A stretch of 41,016 nucleotides of DNA from Acidobacteriota bacterium (GTDB lineage: Bacteria; Acidobacteriota; Vicinamibacteria; Vicinamibacterales; UBA2999). The notes below the pieces were generated by a model that searched no databases, had not been told where the DNA came from, and worked only from the letters and a program-made list of their open reading frames with translations. The position numbers were made by a program, and so were the translations under genes. The DNA is taken from positions 1 to 41,016 of the forward strand of contig JACQTK010000053.1 of NCBI GenBank assembly GCA_016210845.1, in the 5' to 3' direction. Positions within the stretch are counted from its first letter, which is position 1; each line of letters opens with the position of its first letter. This document shows positions 21,520-31,357 of this stretch, piece by piece.

Positions 21520-22509
21520 TCAGCGCGCGGGCGGTTCGTGTACGGTAATCGTCTCACCGACGTCAAACGACATGAGGTCCACGCCGACGACGAGGGGACC
21601 CTTGTAGGTCTGTCGTGTCATCTCGATCAAGCGTTCGTGCGTCACGTCCGGCGACATGTCGACGTGCGAATACACGGCAAGCTTCGGGGCCGTGCGCGTG
21701 AACACGATGCCCGCCTGATCGGGAAGCGTGTGGTGCGCCAACATTCGCGACGTCTCCTGTGTCTCCCCTGTGCGAACGGCGACCTCATGAACGAGGAGGT
21801 CCACGCCACTCGCCCGCTTGATCAGGTTCTCACTGAACCGCGTATCACCAGACAGAGCCACGGAGCGACCGGCGTAGTCGATTCGGTAACCAAACGCGGG
21901 CACGATGGGGCGATGGTCCACATCAAAGAGCGTGACCCGAACCCCGCCCTCGTCATAGACCACCCCCTCTTCACGCAGCTCTGTCACAGCGATCCGCCCT
22001 CCGTCACGCCCAATCCGGTCATCGCTGATCCGCATCCCCACATCGAACGCGAAGGCCTGCTCGAGGTGTGCGGCAAGCGACTCTGTACCCATGGGTCCGA
22101 ACAGCGACAGGGCACGGGGCTGCGGAGCACCCGCCTGGGTCAACGCCGCGATACCAGTAAACAACCAGCCGGTGAGCCAGAAATCGGGAAGACCCACGAC
22201 GTGGTCGGAATGCAAATGCGTCAGAAACACGGCGTTGACATCCGCATAGCGCTTTCCGAGCTGCGTGAGCCTTTGGATGGTTCCGCGCCCGGTGTCGAAG
22301 AGTAGCGTCGTACTGCCGGCCTCCACGAGCGTGGCGGGTCCGAACTGGTCGATTTTCGGGGGTGGTGAACCGGTGCCCAGGAGCGTGACCCTGAAGCGCC
22401 CAGCCGGCTGAGCTGAAAGGCCGGCGAAGGCGACAAGCACACCGACGAGCGCTGCCGCGGTTCTGAAGGGAGCGCGTGTCACCGAAAGACCGTTACGACG
22501 CGCATTCAC
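21520..22509 (-). CDS. Secreted MBL-fold hydrolase, RNase Z-like subfamily
   Basis: VTLLGTGSPPPKIDQFGPATLVEAGSTTLLFDTGRG, FLTHLHSDHVVGLPDFWLTG; signal-like N-terminus; overlaps the 3' end of the sulfite reductase gene. Confidence 0.82.
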   Translation of the reverse strand: MNARRNGLSVTRAPFRTAAALVGVLVAFAGLSAQPAGRFRVTLLGTGSPPPKIDQFGPATLVEAGSTTLLFDTGRGTIQRLTQLGKRYADVNAVFLTHLHSDHVVGLPDFWLTGWLFTGIAALTQAGAPQPRALSLFGPMGTESLAAHLEQAFAFDVGMRISDDRIGRDGGRIAVTELREEGVVYDEGGVRVTLFDVDHRPIVPAFGYRIDYAGRSVALSGDTRFSENLIKRASGVDLLVHEVAVRTGETQETSRMLAHHTLPDQAGIVFTRTAPKLAVYSHVDMSPDVTHERLIEMTRQTYKGPLVVGVDLMSFDVGETITVHEPPAR

Positions 22510-24322
22510 CGTCCATGACCTCCGGCGCGAACGCCTGGCTTTCGCCCAGGTCGATATAGTCGTCGGCCGTCGTGTCCTGTGGCTGGAGCTCGGCGAGGTC
22601 CTTGAGCGCGTCGGACGCCACGGCTGGCGGCACGCGGCGGAAAAATGCGCCCAGCGACTCGCCGTCCTGGCGACGTACGCGGTAGAGCACGATCAGGCGG
22701 TCGACCGCTTCCGTCAGGCGGCGCGCGGGAATTTTCGACACCACGCGGCCGAAGCTGGCCCCCGCCTCCGTAGTGCCGCCGCCCACGAGCACGAAGTACT
22801 GCGGCACGGCCCGGCCGCCGACCTTCCGGACGCTGCCCTGGAAGCCGATCGCCGCGATGTGATGCTGGCCGCAGCCGTTCGGGCAGCCGCTGATCTTGAT
22901 GTCGCCCGACGGCACCCCGTCCACCAGCTCGGGATGCGCGCTCAGGTGCTCGGTGAGCACCCGCCCGAGGCCGCGCGACTGCGTCACGGCCAGGCGGCAG
23001 GTCTCGGCGCCCGGGCAGCTGGTCACATCGGCCACGGTACCGGCGTCCGGCGCGCTCAGGCCGGCAGCGTCGAGACGGGTGTAGACAGCCTCCACCGCCT
23101 CCCTCTTCACCCAGCGGAACACGACGTTCTGCTCGATGGTCAGGCGCACCGTGCCATCGCCGTACGCCTCGGCGAGATCGGCCAGCACCTGCGCCTGGCC
23201 GGTCGTGAAGTCGCCGAGCGGCAGACGCACGGTGACACAGACGTAGCCGTCCTGCCGCTGGCGGCGGACGTTGCGCGTCATCCACCGCACGTAGGCGTCG
23301 GGCAGCGTCTGCAGCCGCACGGTACCGGGCACGATGCCTGGTCCCGTGACCGTCGTGCGAGCCAGCGCCGCCACCACCTGCGGCGTGGGGGCCGCGGGCT
23401 TCGGCCAGTCCGGCGCCTGCTCGAGCGGCACGGCCGACGGATCGAACGGCAGTCGGGCGCCGGCGCCCCCTTCACGGCGGAACTCCGCCAGCGCGTCCTC
23501 GTAGCGCCGTCGCCACTCCTCCCACCCGAGCGCCTTGATGAGGAACTTCATGCGGTTGCGCTGCATGTGCCGGCGGTCGCCGTCGCGATGGAAGACGCGG
23601 ACGATCGCCTCCGCAACGTTCAGCATCTCCTTGACGGGCAGGAAGTCATAGAGGAGCTGACCGTTGTTGACGAGAATCGACGTGCCGCCGCCGACCGTCA
23701 CGCGGAACCCGCGCTTGCCGTTGACGATGCGGGCGCGCCAGCCGATGTCGTGGATGGCGGCCACGGCGTGATCGTCGGGGCAGCCCTCGAAGGCGATCTT
23801 GAACTTGCGCGGCAGCGACGCGCTCAGCGGGTGGCGCAGGAAATACCGCGTCATCGCCTCGCCGTACGGCGTGACGTCGAAGACCTCGTCGTCGGCCACG
23901 CCCGCATACGGGCAGGCGGTGATGTTCCGGACGGAGTTGCCGCAGGCCTCCCGCGTGGTAATGCCCGTCTCGGCGAGCGCGCGCATGGCGGCCTCGACGT
24001 CCTGCAGCGGCACGAAGTGGAACTGCACGTTCTGCCGCGTGGTGATGTGGGCAAATCCCCGCGAGTAGCTCGTGGCCACGCCGGCCAGCGCCCGCAGCTG
24101 CGTGCTCGTGACGATGCCCTGCGGGATCTTGACGCGCAGCATGTGCACCGCCTCGGGCTGGCGCTGCCCGTAGGTGCCGCGCACCAGCCTGAACTTGCGC
24201 CAGTCTTCGGGGGAAATCTCCCCGCGCTCGTACTTGCCCAGCACCTCGACGAACTCGTCGATGTCCCGCTCGTCCGCGAACGAGAGTCGAGCGCGCCCGA
24301 CTGTCTGATCAATGACCGGCAT
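22493..24322 (-). CDS. Ferredoxin-type nitrite/sulfite reductase (siroheme, [4Fe-4S])
   Basis: [54 protein letters not shown] siroheme/4Fe-4S motifs. Confidence 0.9.
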
Positions 24323-25082
24323 ACTTCACCTCGTTCCCCGGCGCGACCGGCGGCACGGAGGTCGCGTTCAACGCCTCTCGGATCTGCACCACCTCGCCAA
24401 CCACCAGCACTCCTGCGGCGCCGACGGGCGCGGCCGCCGCCCCCGTCTCGCCCAGGCGCCCCGTCCACGTCCAGGCGTCGGGCATCGAGGCGTTGCAGAC
24501 GATGGCGGCCGGCGTCTCGGGCGCCCATCCGTGCGCCATCAGCCGTGAGGCCAGCTCCGCGCGCGCGCCGACGCCCATCAGAATCACGATCGATACGGTG
24601 TTCGGCCGGATCGAGCGCAGCGTGTGGTCCACCGCCTCCGATGTGTGGCCCGCCATCACCAGGAAGCCCGACGCGATCCCGCGATGCGTCACGGGGATGC
24701 CCGCGAGCGCGGGCGCCGCCACGGCAGTGGTGACACCTGGAACCACCTCGAACGGAATGCCCGCCATGGCCAGGGCCAGCGCTTCTTCGCCGCCCCGCCC
24801 GAAGACGAACGGGTCGCCGCCCTTGAGCCGCACCACCCGTCTGCCCTGCCTGGCGGCGCGGATCATCAGACGGTTGATCGTCTCCTGGGGAACGCTGTCG
24901 CGCCGCGCACGCTTGCCCACGCAGAAGCACTGGGCCCGGGTCGCGCGGCGGAGCGCCTCCACGTCCACGAGCGCGTCGTAGAGGATCAGGTCCGCCTCTT
25001 CAATGCGACGTGCTGCCCGGATCGTCCAAAGGTCCGGATCGCCCGGGCCCGCTCCGACGAGTGATACCAGCCCTACCGCCAT
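24309..25082 (-). CDS. cobA: Uroporphyrinogen-III C-methyltransferase (SUMT)
   Basis: [83 protein letters not shown]. Confidence 0.92.
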
Positions 25083-25114
25083 AAAAAGCAAAAGCCCGGG
25101 AAACCGTCCCGGGC
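25083..25114 (-). terminator. Intrinsic terminator abutting the cobA start codon (candidate attenuator)
   Basis: Minus strand GCCCGGGA-CGGTT-TCCCGGGC (stem 25094-25114) followed by TTTTGCTTTTT (25093-25083), then ATG of cobA. Confidence 0.8.
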
Positions 25115-25152
25115 CTTCAATCCCTCATGTTGGGTTCTTGTCTTTCGATCGC

Positions 25153-25233
25153 TCACCCACACAGCCGGACCGTTGGCGCAGGGACCTCGATGGTCCCGGT
25201 ACACACGCACGGCCGACCGCAGACGGCAAGCAT
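25153..25233 (-). CDS. Putative cysteine-rich leader peptide MLAVCGRPCVCTGTIEVPAPTVRLCG* (26 aa, 4 Cys)
   Basis: Hand-translated codon by codon: ATG CTT GCC GTC TGC GGT CGG CCG TGC GTG TGT ACC GGG ACC ATC GAG GTC CCT GCG CCA ACG GTC CGG CTG TGT GGG TGA; lies between candidate promoter and terminator of the siroheme/sulfite reductase operon. Confidence 0.65.
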   Translation of the reverse strand: MLAVCGRPCVCTGTIEVPAPTVRLCG

Positions 25234-25241
25234 CGTCAGGA

Positions 25242-25271
25242 ATATTACCGCCGAACCTTGGGAAAAATCAA
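25242..25271 (-). promoter_or_regulatory. Candidate sigma70-like promoter TTGATT-N18-TAATAT, 8 nt upstream of leader ATG
   Basis: -35 at 25266-25271, -10 at 25242-25247; AT-rich patch in GC-rich DNA. Confidence 0.5.
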
Positions 25272-25318: not shown

Positions 25319-25873
25319 CTATCTGCCCGTGTACAGCCGATTCAACGTGTCCAGCAACTGCGGCCGCCGCTGCTCCATCGGCACCCGCTGCTCCTTCCAC
25401 TGGCGCCGCGCCTCGTCCGCGGCCGACATCCACGCGTCCAGGTCGCCCGGGAGCCAGGCGTCGATCGCCTCACGGAGCAGGGCGGCCAGCGCGGGCGCAC
25501 GCCCGTCGGTGGAGATCGCCACGGTCACGCCATCGCGGCGGACGATGCCGCCTGCGTACGCGGTGGCGTGGGCGGGATCGTCCACGGCGTTCACGAAGAT
25601 GCGCCGACCGCTGGCCGCCTCGTACACCCGCGCGTTGACCTGGGGCGGAGCCGCCGCCACCACCCACCAGGCGCCGTCCAGATCGGCATCCTCGAACCCG
25701 CGCCTCACGATCGTGACGCCCGGGCGCACGATCTCCGGACGAACCTCGGGCGCCACGACGGTCACGTCGGCCCCCGCCGCCAGCAACGCGTCGAGCTTGC
25801 CGGCCGCCACGCGTCCGCCGCCCACCACGACGACGTGGCGCCCGCGCAGATTCAAGAACGCTGGAAACATCAT
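25319..25873 (-). CDS. Precorrin-2 dehydrogenase / sirohydrochlorin ferrochelatase-type protein (CysG N-terminal/Met8-like)
   Basis: FPAFLNLRGRHVVVVGGGRVAAGKLDALLAAGADVTVVAP; VNAVDDPAHATAYAGGIVRRDGVTVAISTDGRAPALAALLREAIDAWLP. Confidence 0.9.
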   Translation of the reverse strand: MMFPAFLNLRGRHVVVVGGGRVAAGKLDALLAAGADVTVVAPEVRPEIVRPGVTIVRRGFEDADLDGAWWVVAAAPPQVNARVYEAASGRRIFVNAVDDPAHATAYAGGIVRRDGVTVAISTDGRAPALAALLREAIDAWLPGDLDAWMSAADEARRQWKEQRVPMEQRRPQLLDTLNRLYTGR

Positions 25874-25961: not shown

Positions 25962-27215
25962 TCAGGCCTGCGCCCCCGCAGGCACACCCAGCTGCGATCC
26001 GATCACGCGCTCGAACTCCGCGAAGCCGCGCCCGATCTGCGTGGGCTGGGTCACCCTGTCGTACATCACCTCGGCCGTCTTGTAGCCGTTGCCCGTGATG
26101 CACACCACCATCGACTCGTGCGGCTTGATCACGCCGCGCTCGACCAGCGCGCGCGCGCCCGCCAGCGTCGTCCCGCCGGCCGGCTCGGTGAAGATGCCCT
26201 CGGTCTGCGCGAGCAGTTGCACGGCGTCGAGAATCTCCTCGTCGCTCACCATGGCGCCCTGACCGCCCGTCTCCCTGACGCGCGCCACGACCTGGAAGCC
26301 GTCGGCCGGATTGCCGATGGCCAGCGACTTCGCGATCGTGTTCGGCTTGACCGGCTCGGGATACTCCAGGCCGGCCTCGAGCGCCCGGACGACGGGCGCC
26401 GACCCGGCCGGCTGAGCCGCATGGACCTTCGGCAGGGCACCATCGACGAGCCCCAGGTCCTGGAACTCGCGGAAGCCCTTCACGATGCGCGGCAGCAGCG
26501 TTCCGCCAGCCACGGGCGAGACCACGTGATCGGGAAAGCGCCACCCGAGCTGCTCGGCGATCTCGAAGGCCATGGTCTTTGCGCCCTCCGCGTAGTACGC
26601 GCGCAGATTGATGTTGGCGAATCCCCATCCGTACCGATCCGCGATCTGCGTGCACAGACGATTCACGTCGTCGTAGTTGCCCTCGACGGCCACGACGTGC
26701 GGCCGATAGATCGCGGCGCCCAGCACCTTCGACGGCTCCAGGTCGTGCGGAATGAAGACGTAGCACGGAAGCCCGAGCCGAGCGGCGTGCGCCGCCACGC
26801 TGCCTGCCAGGTTGCCCGTCGATGCGCAGCCAAACACCTGGAAGCCGAGGTCGACGGCACGGCTCGCCGCCACCGAGACCACTCGATCCTTGTAGGAGAA
26901 GGTCGGATGGTTGACCGAGTCGTCCTTGATGTACACCTCGGCGACTCCAAGCTCCCGCGCCAGGCGCGTGGCGCGCACGAGCGGCGTGAAGCCGGAGTGG
27001 AAGCCGGTGCGCGGCTCGTCGACGGGCAGCAGCTCCCGGTACCGCCACAGCGAGTGGGGCCGCGACTCGATGGCCTCGCGGCTGATGGCCGAGCGGATGG
27101 CCGCATAGTCATAGGTGACTTCCAGCGGACCCAGGCATTCGGAGCACACCCACAGCGCCTCGGGCGGATAGCTGGCGCCACACACATGACATTTCAAACC
27201 GGCAACGAATCTCAT
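25962..27215 (-). CDS. thrC: Threonine synthase
   Basis: MRFVAGLKCHVCGASYPPEALWVCSECLGPLEV zinc-ribbon-like N-terminus; DDSVNHPTFSYKDRVVSVAASRAVDLGFQVFGCASTGNLAGSVAAHAARLGLPCYVFIP PLP motif. N-terminal part of the 585-aa track ORF is spurious. Confidence 0.92.
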   Translation of the reverse strand: MRFVAGLKCHVCGASYPPEALWVCSECLGPLEVTYDYAAIRSAISREAIESRPHSLWRYRELLPVDEPRTGFHSGFTPLVRATRLARELGVAEVYIKDDSVNHPTFSYKDRVVSVAASRAVDLGFQVFGCASTGNLAGSVAAHAARLGLPCYVFIPHDLEPSKVLGAAIYRPHVVAVEGNYDDVNRLCTQIADRYGWGFANINLRAYYAEGAKTMAFEIAEQLGWRFPDHVVSPVAGGTLLPRIVKGFREFQDLGLVDGALPKVHAAQPAGSAPVVRALEAGLEYPEPVKPNTIAKSLAIGNPADGFQVVARVRETGGQGAMVSDEEILDAVQLLAQTEGIFTEPAGGTTLAGARALVERGVIKPHESMVVCITGNGYKTAEVMYDRVTQPTQIGRGFAEFERVIGSQLGVPAGAQA

Positions 27216-28231
27216 ACGGCTCTCCCGCACACCTCGGACGACAGGTCCTGCCCTCGCGTGGACGTGTCCGCCATCGCGCGGGGCGCGGACACGGAAGACG
27301 CGGAAGCGGACTGATGGACGGCAAGCGTCCGGACCTTGACCGGACATCCGGCCCGCTCGCACGTCGACGCCAACAGCTGACCGATCCGCGCGAAGTCGCG
27401 CCGCGCGAGCAGCGCGACCGACGGACCGGCTCCGGAGAGAAAGCTGGCGAGAATCTCCGGATCCTCCAGCGCGAGCACCGCGGCCAGGTGAGGGACGAGC
27501 GCCGCCCGGGCGGACTGATGCCAGCGGTCCTTCACCGCCTCGCGCAGCCTGTCGTACTCGCCATGTTGCAGCGCGTGAACGAGCGACAGGACCCGCTGCA
27601 GGTTGAAGACGGCATCCTTCCGCGCGATGGCGTCGGGCAGCACGGCGCGCGCGGCGGACGTGGCCAGGCCCGTTGCGGGCGTGGCGACCACGACGCGCAC
27701 CTCCTCTGGCCACCGCCACTGCAGGGCCAGCGGCTCCTCGCCCGGGCGATCGACGACCGACGTCAAGCCGCCGTGCAACGCCGCTGCGGCGTTGTCCGCA
27801 TGCCCATCGAGGGAGGCCGCCACGGCCAGCATCACGTCTTCGGGCACTGGCCCGGCGACGCGTTGGAACACCCGCAGCCCCGCCACTGCCGCCGCGGCGC
27901 TGCTGCCCAGACCCGCCGCCATCGGGACCTCGCTGCTCACCTCAACGAAGACCGAAGGCGTCCTCGTCCCGGTCCGCCGGACGATGGCGTCGAACGCCCG
28001 CTCGACGGCGTTCCGACCGCGGACGGGCGGCGTGCTGCTCACCACCTTCAACGTCGAGCCACCGTCGTCGCGGATCTCGGCGATCCGCAGGCGAAGGTAC
28101 AACTGAACGGCCACGGCGAGCGTATCGAACCCGCCGCCCAGGTTGGCGACCGACGCTGGAACCAGGAGGTTCTCACCGTCGGGCGGGCCTTCACGGCCCG
28201 CCGGCGTGCCGCGATTTTCCTTAAGTGACAC
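27212..28231 (-). CDS. thrB: Homoserine kinase (GHMP family)
   Basis: VPASVANLGGGFDTLAVAVQL; SSEVPMAAGLGSSAAAAVAGLRVF GHMP motif; between hom and thrC. GTG start. Confidence 0.9.
   Translation of the reverse strand: MSLKENRGTPAGREGPPDGENLLVPASVANLGGGFDTLAVAVQLYLRLRIAEIRDDGGSTLKVVSSTPPVRGRNAVERAFDAIVRRTGTRTPSVFVEVSSEVPMAAGLGSSAAAAVAGLRVFQRVAGPVPEDVMLAVAASLDGHADNAAAALHGGLTSVVDRPGEEPLALQWRWPEEVRVVVATPATGLATSAARAVLPDAIARKDAVFNLQRVLSLVHALQHGEYDRLREAVKDRWHQSARAALVPHLAAVLALEDPEILASFLSGAGPSVALLARRDFARIGQLLASTCERAGCPVKVRTLAVHQSASASSVSAPRAMADTSTRGQDLSSEVCGRAV
28183..28203. repeat. Hairpin GGCGGGCC-TTCAC-GGCCCGCC within the 5' end of thrB
   Basis: Perfect 8-bp stem; 18/21 identity to the hairpin at 25929-25949. 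Confidence 0.6.
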
Positions 28232-28276
28232 GAATTAAAAACGCTATCACGTTCCTAGGCCCGGAAATACAGGATA

Positions 28277-29566
28277 TCAAGAGCGAGCCCTTGGGTGCTC
28301 GTCGCCCAACAGGATGGGGAGCGCCAGCGGGGGTTCCGCGTGGAAGTCCGCGCTCCCGATGGCGTGCATGGCCGCCCGCAAGGGGGCTTCCGCGCACGCC
28401 TCCACCGTGATGACGAACGGCAGAGCCTCTTTCGGGTAGCCCGGCTCCTGCAGCACCGCGTCCAGGTTGATCCCCTGGTCGGCCAGAGCCGCCGCGATCG
28501 CGGCCAGGATGCCCGGACGGTCCCGCACCACGAAGCGCAGGTAATACGGCCGCGCGGGAGGCGGCACCAGCGTGCCTGGCAGCCATTCCTCTCCGTGCTC
28601 GCGCTGGCGCTGGGCCAGGGCCAGCAGATCGGAGACCACGGCCACCGCCGTGGCCGGCCCGCCGGCGCCCGCCCCCGAAAAGCTGCTCTCGCCGCCGTAC
28701 CGCCCCACGATCGTCACGACGTTGTTGGCGCCCATGTTGAGGCCGAAGTTCGACCCGCGCAGCACCAGCGCGGGCCCGACGAAGGCGTGGAAGCCGTCGC
28801 CGCTGGCCTCGACCATCGCGATCTGGCGGATCGTGCAGCCAAGACGGCGCGCGTACCGGAAGTCCGCGCCCGAGATCGGTCGAATCGAGCGGCGAGGAAT
28901 GTCCGAGAGCCGCAGGTGCCGCCTGAAGGCAATGCCCGCGAGCACCACGAGCTTGGCGCCTGCGTCATCGCCGTCGATGTCGGCGCTCGGATCCGCCTCG
29001 GCGTACCCCAGGCGGCGCGCCTCATCCAGCACGGCGGACATGGGCTGATCGGCGCCGTCGGCCATCCGGCTCAGCACGTAGTTCGACGTGCCGTTCAGGA
29101 TGCCCGCCACTCCGGTCAGGATGTCGCCAGCCAGCCCTTCGCGAACGCCGTGAATCAGCGGCACGCCGCCGCCCACGGCTGCCTCGAACCGAATCTGTGT
29201 GCCGTGCGTGGCCGCAAGGTGCAGCAGTTCGGGTCCTTGCGCGGCCAGCAGCACCTTGTTCGCGGTGACCACCGCGATGCCCTGCTGTAGGGCGCGACGC
29301 ACCCACCCGCCCACGGGATCGAGGCCGCCGATCACCTCGACCACCACATCGGGACCGGCAGCGAACAGCTCGTCGACGTCATCGGTCCACGTCGTGGACG
29401 AGGGGACCCAGGCGGTGCGTTTGCGCGCGACGTCGCGGTTGAAGATGTGCGTGAGGTGGACGCGTCCGGCCAGCTCGGGCCGCTCCACGAGCACGCGCGC
29501 CACGGATGCTCCCACGGTGCCGAAGCCGAGGAGCGCGACGCGCAGCGGTCCACGCGGTGCGGTCAC
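28277..29566 (-). CDS. hom: Homoserine dehydrogenase
   Basis: RVALLGFGTVGASVARVL; VTANKVLLA; GGVPLIHGVREGLAGDILTGVAGILNGTSNYVLSRM; C-terminal ACT-like domain; ATGA overlap with aspartokinase. Confidence 0.93.
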   Translation of the reverse strand: MTAPRGPLRVALLGFGTVGASVARVLVERPELAGRVHLTHIFNRDVARKRTAWVPSSTTWTDDVDELFAAGPDVVVEVIGGLDPVGGWVRRALQQGIAVVTANKVLLAAQGPELLHLAATHGTQIRFEAAVGGGVPLIHGVREGLAGDILTGVAGILNGTSNYVLSRMADGADQPMSAVLDEARRLGYAEADPSADIDGDDAGAKLVVLAGIAFRRHLRLSDIPRRSIRPISGADFRYARRLGCTIRQIAMVEASGDGFHAFVGPALVLRGSNFGLNMGANNVVTIVGRYGGESSFSGAGAGGPATAVAVVSDLLALAQRQREHGEEWLPGTLVPPPARPYYLRFVVRDRPGILAAIAAALADQGINLDAVLQEPGYPKEALPFVITVEACAEAPLRAAMHAIGSADFHAEPPLALPILLGDEHPRARS

Positions 29567-31269
29567 AGCCGTGCTCCCGTGACACTAACGCGCCAGATCT
29601 TGTCTTTTCGCACAACTTCGGGCGCGTTAGTGTCACTAGCAGATACAGGTTCTTGATCCCAGCGCGGCGTTTGGTTGCGGCTTCGCCGCGCTGGGGTCTT
29701 CGGGTTGCTCTGCTCCGGCGGGGGCGAGCCACGCCACCCCACGGCGCCAGCGCCGTGGGGGCCCCGGGTCAGGCGCGCCTCCGCGGAGCTGACACGGTCC
29801 GCGCCACGGGCGGACGGTCGATCAACGGGCCAGCACGCGTCGTACAGGTGGGACAGCAGTCTGGGCGCGAGCGCGCGAGAGGTGACACAGACCAGCGCGT
29901 CACCGGAATCCGCCGCCACCACCGATTCGGCGTGCCGCGCGTACACGGCGGCGGTGAGCACCGACCAGACGGATGCGTGCCCCGCGATGCCGTTGCCGAC
30001 GGCGGTGACGGTCGCCGCATTGCGGACGACCCGTACGTCGGCGAGATCGTGGATGGCGACCAGCAGCCGATCGATCGAGGACTCCTGCGTCGTCACGACG
30101 ACCAGGCGGGTGGCCGAGAGCGACACGACCGTGACGCGGTCGCCTTCGCCCGCCAGCCAATCGAGCGCCTCCCGCAGCAGTCCCAGCGGTCGTGCGATGC
30201 GACGCGCGCGCACGTCCGCCACCGTGACGCCAACCTGATGAGCAAGACCGACGACTGGCGACCTGGCCGGGCCGACCTGAAGGTCGGCGCCTACAGTGCG
30301 CCAGACGTCGGCCCCTCCATTGCCAGTGTAGGGGCCGACCTTCAGGTCGGCCCGATCGTTGCGCCGTGCCCTGGCGCAGATCGTGGTCCCCACACCGTCC
30401 CCGCGCGAACTGAGCACCCGCACGGGAATGTCGTGTGCGGCGGCCGGCTGCAGCGTCCCCCAATGGAGCACCTTCGCGCCGAACCGCGCCATCTCGTACG
30501 CCTCCTGAAAGGACAGCCGGTCGATGCGGCTGGCGCGAGCGATGACGCGCGGATCCGCGTCGAGCACGCCGTCCACATCGGTCCAGATCTGAATCTCCTC
30601 CGCGGAGGCGGCCGCAGCCACGAGCGCCGCCGAGTAATCCGAGCCCCCGCGCCCGAGCGTCGTGGTGGCGCCGTCCGGCGTGGCGCCGATGAAGCCCCCC
30701 AGTACGGGCACGCGGCCAACGGCCAGCAGCGGCTCCACACTCCGGTCGTACGCCGCACGGATGGCATCGGGCCTGGGCCGCGCCTGGCCGAACAGGTCGT
30801 CGGTGACGATGACCTCGCGTGCGTCGACCCAGGCGGCCGGCAGGCCGGCTGCCGAGAGCACGGCCGCTACGAGCTCGCTGCCGGCCAGCTCTCCCACAGC
30901 GAGCACGGCATCACTCTCCTCCGGGGACGGCGCCTCCGCCCTGATCACCCTCGCCGCTTCCTCGAACCGCGCGCGCAGCCGATCGACGAGCGCACCCTGC
31001 GCGTGCGCCGCGACGAGCTCGCGCACCAACGCGACGTGGCGCTCGAGCAGCCGGTGCATCGTCTCGCCCGCCGCGGCGCCGCGTACACGGCCCTCCGTCA
31101 CGCCGCACAGCGCGTCGGTCACACCGGCGAGCGCCGACACGACGATGATTCGGCGGCGGGGCTCGGAGGCCACGCTCGAGACGAGGCGGCCGAGCACCGC
31201 GGCATCCTGCACCGAGGTGCCGCCGAACTTCATCACCACGGTGCGCGAGGCGGGACAGTCGGGGTCCAT
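29563..31269 (-). CDS. Aspartate kinase carrying an in-frame palindromic insertion and palindrome-derived C-terminal tail
   Basis: VVMKFGGTSVQDAAVLGRLVSSVA; GRGGSDYSAALVAAAASAEEIQIWTDVDGVLDADPRV; ACT-domain region VTVVSLSATRLVVVTTQESSIDRLLVAI. Confidence 0.92.
   Translation of the reverse strand: MDPDCPASRTVVMKFGGTSVQDAAVLGRLVSSVASEPRRRIIVVSALAGVTDALCGVTEGRVRGAAAGETMHRLLERHVALVRELVAAHAQGALVDRLRARFEEAARVIRAEAPSPEESDAVLAVGELAGSELVAAVLSAAGLPAAWVDAREVIVTDDLFGQARPRPDAIRAAYDRSVEPLLAVGRVPVLGGFIGATPDGATTTLGRGGSDYSAALVAAAASAEEIQIWTDVDGVLDADPRVIARASRIDRLSFQEAYEMARFGAKVLHWGTLQPAAAHDIPVRVLSSRGDGVGTTICARARRNDRADLKVGPYTGNGGADVWRTVGADLQVGPARSPVVGLAHQVGVTVADVRARRIARPLGLLREALDWLAGEGDRVTVVSLSATRLVVVTTQESSIDRLLVAIHDLADVRVVRNAATVTAVGNGIAGHASVWSVLTAAVYARHAESVVAADSGDALVCVTSRALAPRLLSHLYDACWPVDRPSARGADRVSSAEARLTRGPHGAGAVGWRGSPPPEQSNPKTPARRSRNQTPRWDQEPVSASDTNAPEVVRKDKIWRVSVTGARL
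29579..29636. repeat. 16-bp perfect inverted repeat GTGACACTAACGCGCC...GGCGCGTTAGTGTCAC (26-nt spacer)
   Basis: Left arm 29579-29594, right arm 29621-29636. Confidence 0.85.
29658..29760. repeat. Two further perfect hairpins: CCCAGCGCGGCG/CGCCGCGCTGGG (29658-29695) and CCCCACGGCG-CCAG-CGCCGTGGGG (29737-29760)
   Basis: Perfect 12-bp and 10-bp stems within the 3' region of aspartokinase. Confidence 0.8.
30269..30353. repeat. Palindromic element in aspartokinase coding sequence; 30-nt arms (28/30 complementary) each containing GGCCGACCTGAAGGTCGGC
   Basis: Left 30269-30298, right 30324-30353, 25-nt centre; encodes RADLKVGPYTGNGGADVWRTVGADLQVGPA on the minus strand. Confidence 0.88.
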
Positions 31270-31294
31270 GCCGATCCTCAACTTCTCAAGCCAA

Positions 31295-31357
31295 GCCACG
31301 GAGGCACGGAGGCACGGAGAGCAGCAACAATACTCCGTGTCTCCGCGTCTCCGTGGC
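31295..31357. repeat. Imperfect inverted repeat (GCC)ACGGAGgcACGGAGgcACGGAG ... CTCCGTgtCTCCGCgtCTCCGTGGC
   Basis: 25-nt arms 31295-31319 and 31333-31357, 22/25 complementary; internal 8-nt periodicity. Confidence 0.8.

Follow-up and report, generated by a model that had tools for sequence, protein, structure and literature searches.

A candidate cysteine-responsive transcription attenuator with a Cys-rich, probably leaderless leader ORF upstream of sulfur genes in Vicinamibacteria

Directly ahead of cobA, the minus strand of a 41,016-nt stretch of Acidobacteriota DNA (hereafter the window) carries a short Cys-containing open reading frame (ORF) followed by a terminator-like hairpin, which raises the question of whether this arrangement adjusts expression of the genes behind it to the supply of cysteine. 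An earlier note on this DNA had proposed that it does, by stalling of a ribosome at Cys codons. The elements it had listed, i.e., TTGATT-N18-TAATAT, a 26-codon ORF with Cys at codons 5, 9, 11 and 25, a 38-nt gap between the leader stop codon and the terminator stem, and a perfect 8-bp terminator with a T-run reaching the cobA ATG, were all confirmed at their coordinates (Table 1). The promoter pair matches the consensus at only 8 of 12 positions and is absent from our promoter scan list. As in trp-type attenuators, the leader ORF holds codons for the amino acid that the regulated pathway produces, and an intrinsic terminator lies between this ORF and the first gene.

Table 1 Parts of the candidate attenuator and adjoining genes in the window
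Feature	Position	Strand	Sequence or remark
-35 element	25266..25271	minus	TTGATT; read from sequence; relatives mostly have TTGACN
-10 element	25242..25247	minus	TAATAT; 18 nt after TTGATT; ends 8 nt ahead of the leader start codon
Leader ORF	25153..25233	minus	MLAVCGRPCVCTGTIEVPAPTVRLCG, 26 codons; ATG at 25233, stop codon TGA
Cys codon 5	25219..25221	minus	
Cys codon 9	25207..25209	minus	Aligned column invariant in 13 close leaders
Cys codon 11	25201..25203	minus	A ribosome with its A-site here would cover the 5' arm of the protecting hairpin
Protecting hairpin (1:2)	25181..25197	minus	GGGACC-ATCGA-GGTCCC
Antiterminator 5' strand (region 2)	25158..25186	minus	GGTCCCTGCGCCAACGGTCCGGCTGTGTG; predicted duplex with region 3; stall-dependent binding
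Antiterminator 3' strand/terminator 5' arm (region 3)	25105..25131	minus	AACATGAGGGATTGAAGGCCCGGGACG
Intrinsic terminator hairpin (3:4)	25094..25114	minus	GCCCGGGA-CGGTT-TCCCGGGC; perfect 8-bp stem
T-tract	25083..25093	minus	TTTTGCTTTTT; abuts the cobA ATG at 25082
cobA, uroporphyrinogen-III C-methyltransferase (putatively regulated gene 1)	24309..25082	minus	PF00590; TIGR01469 above cut-off
Siroheme-dependent sulfite/nitrite reductase, NirA type (putatively regulated gene 2)	22493..24322	minus	PF01077, PF03460
CysG N-terminal (precorrin-2 dehydrogenase) gene	25319..25873	minus	Upstream of the leader in the window

The second gene had been called a sulfite reductase. It does encode a siroheme reductase, of the NirA type of ferredoxin nitrite/sulfite reductases (PDB relatives 3b0l, 1zj8 and 5h8v); no curated NCBIfam equivalog scored above its cut-off for this protein, and family models do not settle between the sulfite and the nitrite name. 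The last 17 nt of the reductase gene are shared with a gene for a metallo-beta-lactamase-fold protein (21520-22509), possibly as part of one transcript. No Shine-Dalgarno sequence precedes the cobA ATG, which directly adjoins the T-tract of the terminator (25082-25114). The gene for the N-terminal CysG domain (cysG-N), which lies upstream of the leader in the window, is found downstream of it, inside the putatively attenuated operon, in most relatives. Ahead of the window cysG-N are genes for threonine synthase, homoserine kinase, homoserine dehydrogenase and aspartokinase (25962-31299).

Cysteine content alone is not telling here, since Cys-rich short ORFs are common in the window: 22 of 281 short ORFs contain at least four Cys codons. 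Taken alone, the observation at this locus is therefore weak. It is comparison with relatives that makes it strong.

A DNA search with the leader in 149 related genomes returned two copies, both from one genome (G002), one located before cobA and the other before cysD. Upstream of cobA in further relatives, we found similar leaders with Cys runs such as ACCC and CCCCCC. As the plain DNA search had yielded just two close copies, a covariance model (R1) was built from 16 aligned leaders and their computed consensus structure. R1 matched at E-values up to 0.01 in 119 of the 162 genomes of the order, presumably Vicinamibacterales, with a bias towards Cys that stems from its training on leaders picked for their Cys content; the window leader and the G002 copies had been found independently of it. 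We fetched and read 130 R1 matches and analysed the 123 that had a terminator and at least three Cys. The window peptide is 57% identical (E 1e-8) to one of the related leaders (MLSMCGRPCACCCMGTCRVPALSVRVHG, genome G008), which precedes a cysD-type gene. The same leaders are present in 'Acidobacteria bacterium isolate gp6 AA38' and 'Acidobacteria bacterium 13_1_40CM_65_14' (L071 and L072), the only named records with a leader in a contig scan that otherwise returned mostly distant cobA genes. Leaders with CCC or CCCC are not confined to the order; they were seen elsewhere in its class (G223, G362, G461) and, in one case, in a different lineage (G291). Beyond the class, R1 matches at E above ~1e-5 were mostly bare terminators or lay at unrelated genes, and these were left uncounted.

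The architecture of these leaders is well preserved. At least three consecutive Cys codons (runs of 3-6) are present in 106 of the 123 copies and runs of one or two in the remaining 17. Within the runs, Cys is encoded by TGT 337 times and by TGC 116 times, as expected if the amino acid and not the nucleotide sequence is conserved. The peptides measure 23-38 residues, the distance from stop codon to terminator is 20-56 nt in all but one copy, and a GC stem with a T-run was seen in 127 of the 130 fetched matches. TTGAC stands 15-19 nt ahead of the -10 element in 77 of 123 copies (TTGACG 30, TTGACA 26, TTGACT 16, TTGACC 5). Where the -10 box is good, it mostly lies 7-10 nt from the start codon, and a Shine-Dalgarno-like match precedes just 16 of the 123 ORFs. 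This short distance together with the scarcity of Shine-Dalgarno-like motifs indicates that the leader transcripts are probably leaderless or nearly so. Judged by sequence and comparison, we are thus dealing with a genuine ORF family with conserved promoter distance, terminators and gene associations. A plain terminator between cysG-N and cobA next to a chance short ORF is hardly conceivable for such a family, however common Cys-rich short ORFs may be in a GC-rich window: position, frame, peptide similarity, promoter distance and gene association are all conserved across the order. The earlier note had named missing conservation of the leader ORF or of its Cys codons in close relatives as a finding that would speak against attenuation; the comparison instead revealed that Cys-rich leaders and their terminators precede sulfur genes all across the order.

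The genes behind the leaders form clusters comprising 53 cysG-first siroheme operons, 24 cysD, 9 TauE, 7 redoxin-like and 6 CysM-like genes, in addition to 5 ATP-grasp genes, several of PF03601 (YeiH type), two 1-Cys peroxiredoxins and one NMT1-type binding protein; these tallies are minimum counts, as the ORF picker took wrong frames at some loci, the window included. Viewed from the genes, a leader lies at most 4.5 kb upstream in 52 of 77 cobA loci, and several of the others have one before cysD. In the window's genome, no clear cysD was seen.

The RNA between the Cys codons and the T-tract can adopt alternative structures. In 84 of 122 copies the Cys run is followed within 0-5 nt by a hairpin. 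The 3' arm of this hairpin matches the 5' arm or loop of the terminator by complementarity in many sequence versions, among them GGUCCC/GGGACC, GAGCC/GGCUC, GGCCCC/GGGGCC, GCUUCCGGGC/GCCCGGAAGC and UGAGCCUCC/GGAGGCUCA. Across the family, the complete antiterminator further includes pairing between the last part of the leader ORF and a conserved GATCGAAAG ahead of the terminator. At the window locus, the earlier note had derived an antiterminator from positions 25165-25174. This segment indeed pairs with the terminator arm; the predicted structure is longer, at ~18 pairs, and adds GGTCCC (25186-25181) and GGGATTGAAGG before the terminator. What had been described as an alternative leader hairpin is present at 25197-25181, and its role appears to be that of a protecting hairpin whose 3' arm is part of the antiterminator. 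Because an R1-based alignment (A3) had mixed in terminators of the opposite strand, duplex-swap tests replaced counts of covarying pairs. Over all copies, regions 2 and 3 of the same leader formed a stronger duplex than swapped partners (-30.4 versus -25.7 kcal/mol, p = 5e-16). Within single families, the own pairing was likewise stronger in f1 (p = 1.4e-7) and f5 (p = 6.5e-7), and the test was not significant in f8 (p = 0.09). The corresponding 1:2 swap tests were weak.

To relate these structures to the position of a ribosome, we placed each codon in the A-site in turn and folded the RNA between the leading edge of the ribosome and the terminator loop, with the ribosome edge simplified to 13 nt in the energy model. 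The mean binding of region 3 strengthened from -9.4 kcal/mol at eight codons before the last Cys to -15.8 kcal/mol at the last Cys, and fell to -4.3 and -3.0 kcal/mol at eight and twelve codons after it, while shuffling of the middle region gave a flat profile of about -6 kcal/mol. The window copy behaves similarly. Its leader RNA folds 3.8 standard deviations better than dinucleotide shuffles, and predicted antiterminator binding amounts to -8.1 kcal/mol with the A-site at codon 5, -10.3 at codon 9, -14.4 at codon 11 and -2.8 at the stop codon. Of 500 shuffles, only two attained the value at codon 11, and two matched its difference from the stop codon. With terminator and region boundaries set by script, binding was -13.5 kcal/mol at codon 9 and -14.1 at codon 11, with an optimum of -15.9 at codon 12, so that under both settings the positions of Cys 9-11 are favourable and the stop codon is unfavourable. 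In silico, the antiterminator and the terminator exclude each other, and a ribosome stalled at the regulatory codons favours the former. The mutually exclusive structures for which the earlier note had suggested folding are thus predicted, and its reading of attenuation by stalling at Cys codons gains support, as the profile has the shape that this reading demands.

The window copy itself is best described as a reduced member of the family. It has the pattern C-x-x-x-C-x-C without a Cys run, and the family alignment places its C-V-C opposite CCC-CCCCCC of its relatives, two codons of the run being absent from the window. It may respond less sensitively than its relatives do. Its -35 element is weak, too, and the genome search found no other strong leader copy in the window's genome; these points weigh against attenuation. 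A more drastic reading holds that the window copy has decayed, i.e., that it kept its terminator and became insensitive to cysteine with the loss of the Cys triplet. Besides the missing run, the single strong copy in this genome could be cited for this. However, the missing codons amount to an in-frame deletion, two Cys codons still lie where stalling is optimal, the antiterminator logic is complete, and reduced runs of one or two Cys also occur in the 17 leaders mentioned above. We therefore consider decay improbable, though it is the likeliest of the alternatives.

Two further readings concern the signal. The nascent Cys-rich peptide might sense metals or thiol-redox stress rather than the supply of Cys-tRNA. 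Copper-related leader ORFs with Cys motifs exist in Bordetella, and some of our copies stand before peroxiredoxin- and TlpA-like genes. Most copies, in contrast, precede siroheme/sulfite reductase genes, cysD or Cys synthase genes, and a ribosome stalled at the Cys run would sit just where RNA folding is at its optimum, as stalling at codons demands; sensing of metals or redox state is very unlikely on these grounds. A structured leader with a terminator ahead of sulfur genes could also be a metabolite riboswitch or a T-box in which the ORF is incidental. Here the conserved core is coding, and Rfam release 15 gave no family with a credible score in the window (E-values up to 5 listed, all below the gathering threshold) or at five related loci. 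With nothing above gathering at any of these loci, riboswitch and T-box were rejected and retain only a negligible probability.

We consider it highly likely that the locus acts by ribosome-mediated transcription attenuation in response to cysteine, through a Cys-rich leader peptide read from a leaderless transcript. The transcript would begin at or within ~3 nt of the leader start codon, and a ribosome would load onto the nascent RNA at its 5' end. When Cys-tRNA is plentiful, it would reach the stop codon and cover region 2, and hairpin 1:2 would re-form upon its release. As region 2 would then be unavailable, terminator 3:4 would form and RNA polymerase would halt just before cobA. Under scarcity of Cys-tRNA, the ribosome would stall at codons 9-11 and cover the 5' arm of hairpin 1:2. 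The 3' arm, thereby released, and the remainder of region 2 would pair with the terminator 5' arm and the nucleotides preceding it (2:3). The polymerase would then continue into cobA and the sulfite/nitrite reductase gene, and sulfide, and so cysteine, would rise. The same device before other sulfur and thiol genes of the order would constitute a ribosome-sensed regulon. In this scheme, we infer where the transcript begins, that the ORF is translated, that the device responds to Cys and in which direction it acts. An early idea was that a CGTG/CACG helix at the 5' end sequesters the start codon.

Polycysteine leaderless short ORFs are known from mycobacteria (Shell et al. 2015, PMC4633059; Canestrari et al. 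2020, Mol Microbiol 114:93, as cited in later papers), where Cys leaders had first been predicted by Seliverstov et al. 2005, without intrinsic terminators (PMC1262725). PMC13236596 and PMC9031893 report that these leaders operate at the level of translation. One may thus ask whether a stalled ribosome in our family likewise unmasks a downstream start region, with the hairpin being no terminator, for which the window cobA ATG, placed at the T-tract without a Shine-Dalgarno sequence, might be quoted. Yet a GC stem with a T-run in nearly every copy is the signature of intrinsic termination, and the terminator-to-gene distance varies so widely among relatives that the hairpin cannot generally mask a start codon. 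Control at the level of translation is thus very unlikely, and we maintain transcription attenuation. Both groups share a short ORF that contains consecutive Cys codons, with a separate copy at each of several cysteine-metabolism operons; in our family, too, the ORF probably begins at the 5' end of the mRNA. Unlike the mycobacterial leaders, the present family has an intrinsic terminator and an alternative antiterminator, belongs to a different phylum and carries its Cys run ~12-20 codons before the stop codon instead of next to it. We therefore did not file it with the mycobacterial type, which lacks an intrinsic terminator and controls translation.

Another related case is uORFC-8-2 upstream of cysS in Rhodobacterales, a predicted Cys-codon leader peptide (Brewer et al. 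2021, PMC8632094). It shares the intrinsic terminator, i.e., transcription attenuation by Cys-tRNA supply. It differs in having two tandem Cys codons at positions 14-15, a single target (cysS) and an alphaproteobacterial host, with leaderless starts unmentioned, whereas our leaders serve several operons and share no sequence family with it; genes and phylum set the two apart. With the trp, his and ilv attenuators of Proteobacteria and Actinobacteria, the family has in common the regulatory codons, the 1:2 protecting hairpin, the 2:3 antiterminator and the 3:4 terminator, but it differs in amino acid and phylum and in a leader apparently translated without a Shine-Dalgarno sequence. Our literature search, which reached few subscription papers, found no description of such a Cys attenuator in Acidobacteriota, in agreement with the earlier note, which had known Cys attenuation from mycobacteria and no description for this lineage. 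In a survey of 2010, the attenuators predicted in Acidobacteria had hardly any annotated function (PMC2965389). By its sequence features, the candidate represents a known principle in a new combination, namely a probably leaderless poly-Cys leader joined to an intrinsic terminator at several operons, and in a new lineage.

Whether the cysteine regulon of Vicinamibacteria and, in a second form, of other Acidobacteriota is controlled chiefly by independent leaderless poly-Cys transcription attenuators, with the ribosome as the common regulator, we regard as evenly balanced. The regulon of this joint reading would span sulfate activation, siroheme synthesis and sulfite reduction, cysteine synthesis, transport of sulfur compounds and thiol peroxidases. 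In other bacteria, CysB or CymR serve as regulators. The family offers more than 120 sequence-defined copies with a specific, testable signal, cysteine, and suggests likely sulfur or thiol roles for poorly annotated neighbours such as the TauE- and YeiH-type transporters and the ATP-grasp enzyme. By joining probable leaderless translation to attenuation at an intrinsic terminator, it would also test a 70S ribosome on a 5'-terminal start codon against the pace of RNA polymerase.

A RimK-like ATP-grasp gene recurs behind poly-Cys leaders (L220, L223, L251, L261 and L215; genomes G039, G131, G037 and G105), and its product is possibly an unrecognised thiol or glutathione-like ligase. At another leader (L267, G080:C16), the downstream gene encodes a CysM-like PLP enzyme fused to a JAB/MPN domain (PF14464), which is reminiscent of cysteine synthesis with a sulfur carrier protein.

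A pattern search revealed a second form of poly-Cys ORF in another Acidobacteriota family (f23), MHTASRLCCCCR, with its Cys run next to the stop codon, before a gene for a redoxin-like secreted protein (L317, L318, L319 and L324; G366, G443 and G325). It found no evident terminator at these loci, and the arrangement resembles the mycobacterial one. A further poly-Cys ORF, MLASNMAFSLFHCCCCDQPFVG, lies upstream of a cysteine dioxygenase gene (PF05995; L313 and L314; G373 and G457). As cysteine dioxygenase degrades cysteine, induction at low cysteine would make no sense, and the sign of control may differ at these two loci. Finally, at L322 (G028:C196:14869-14948) a poly-Cys leader, MAPSLLRVRMCCCCRSCDRGPAMRVP, is followed by a terminator-like hairpin and the gene for an SDF-family symporter (PF00375), which is possibly a cystine importer.
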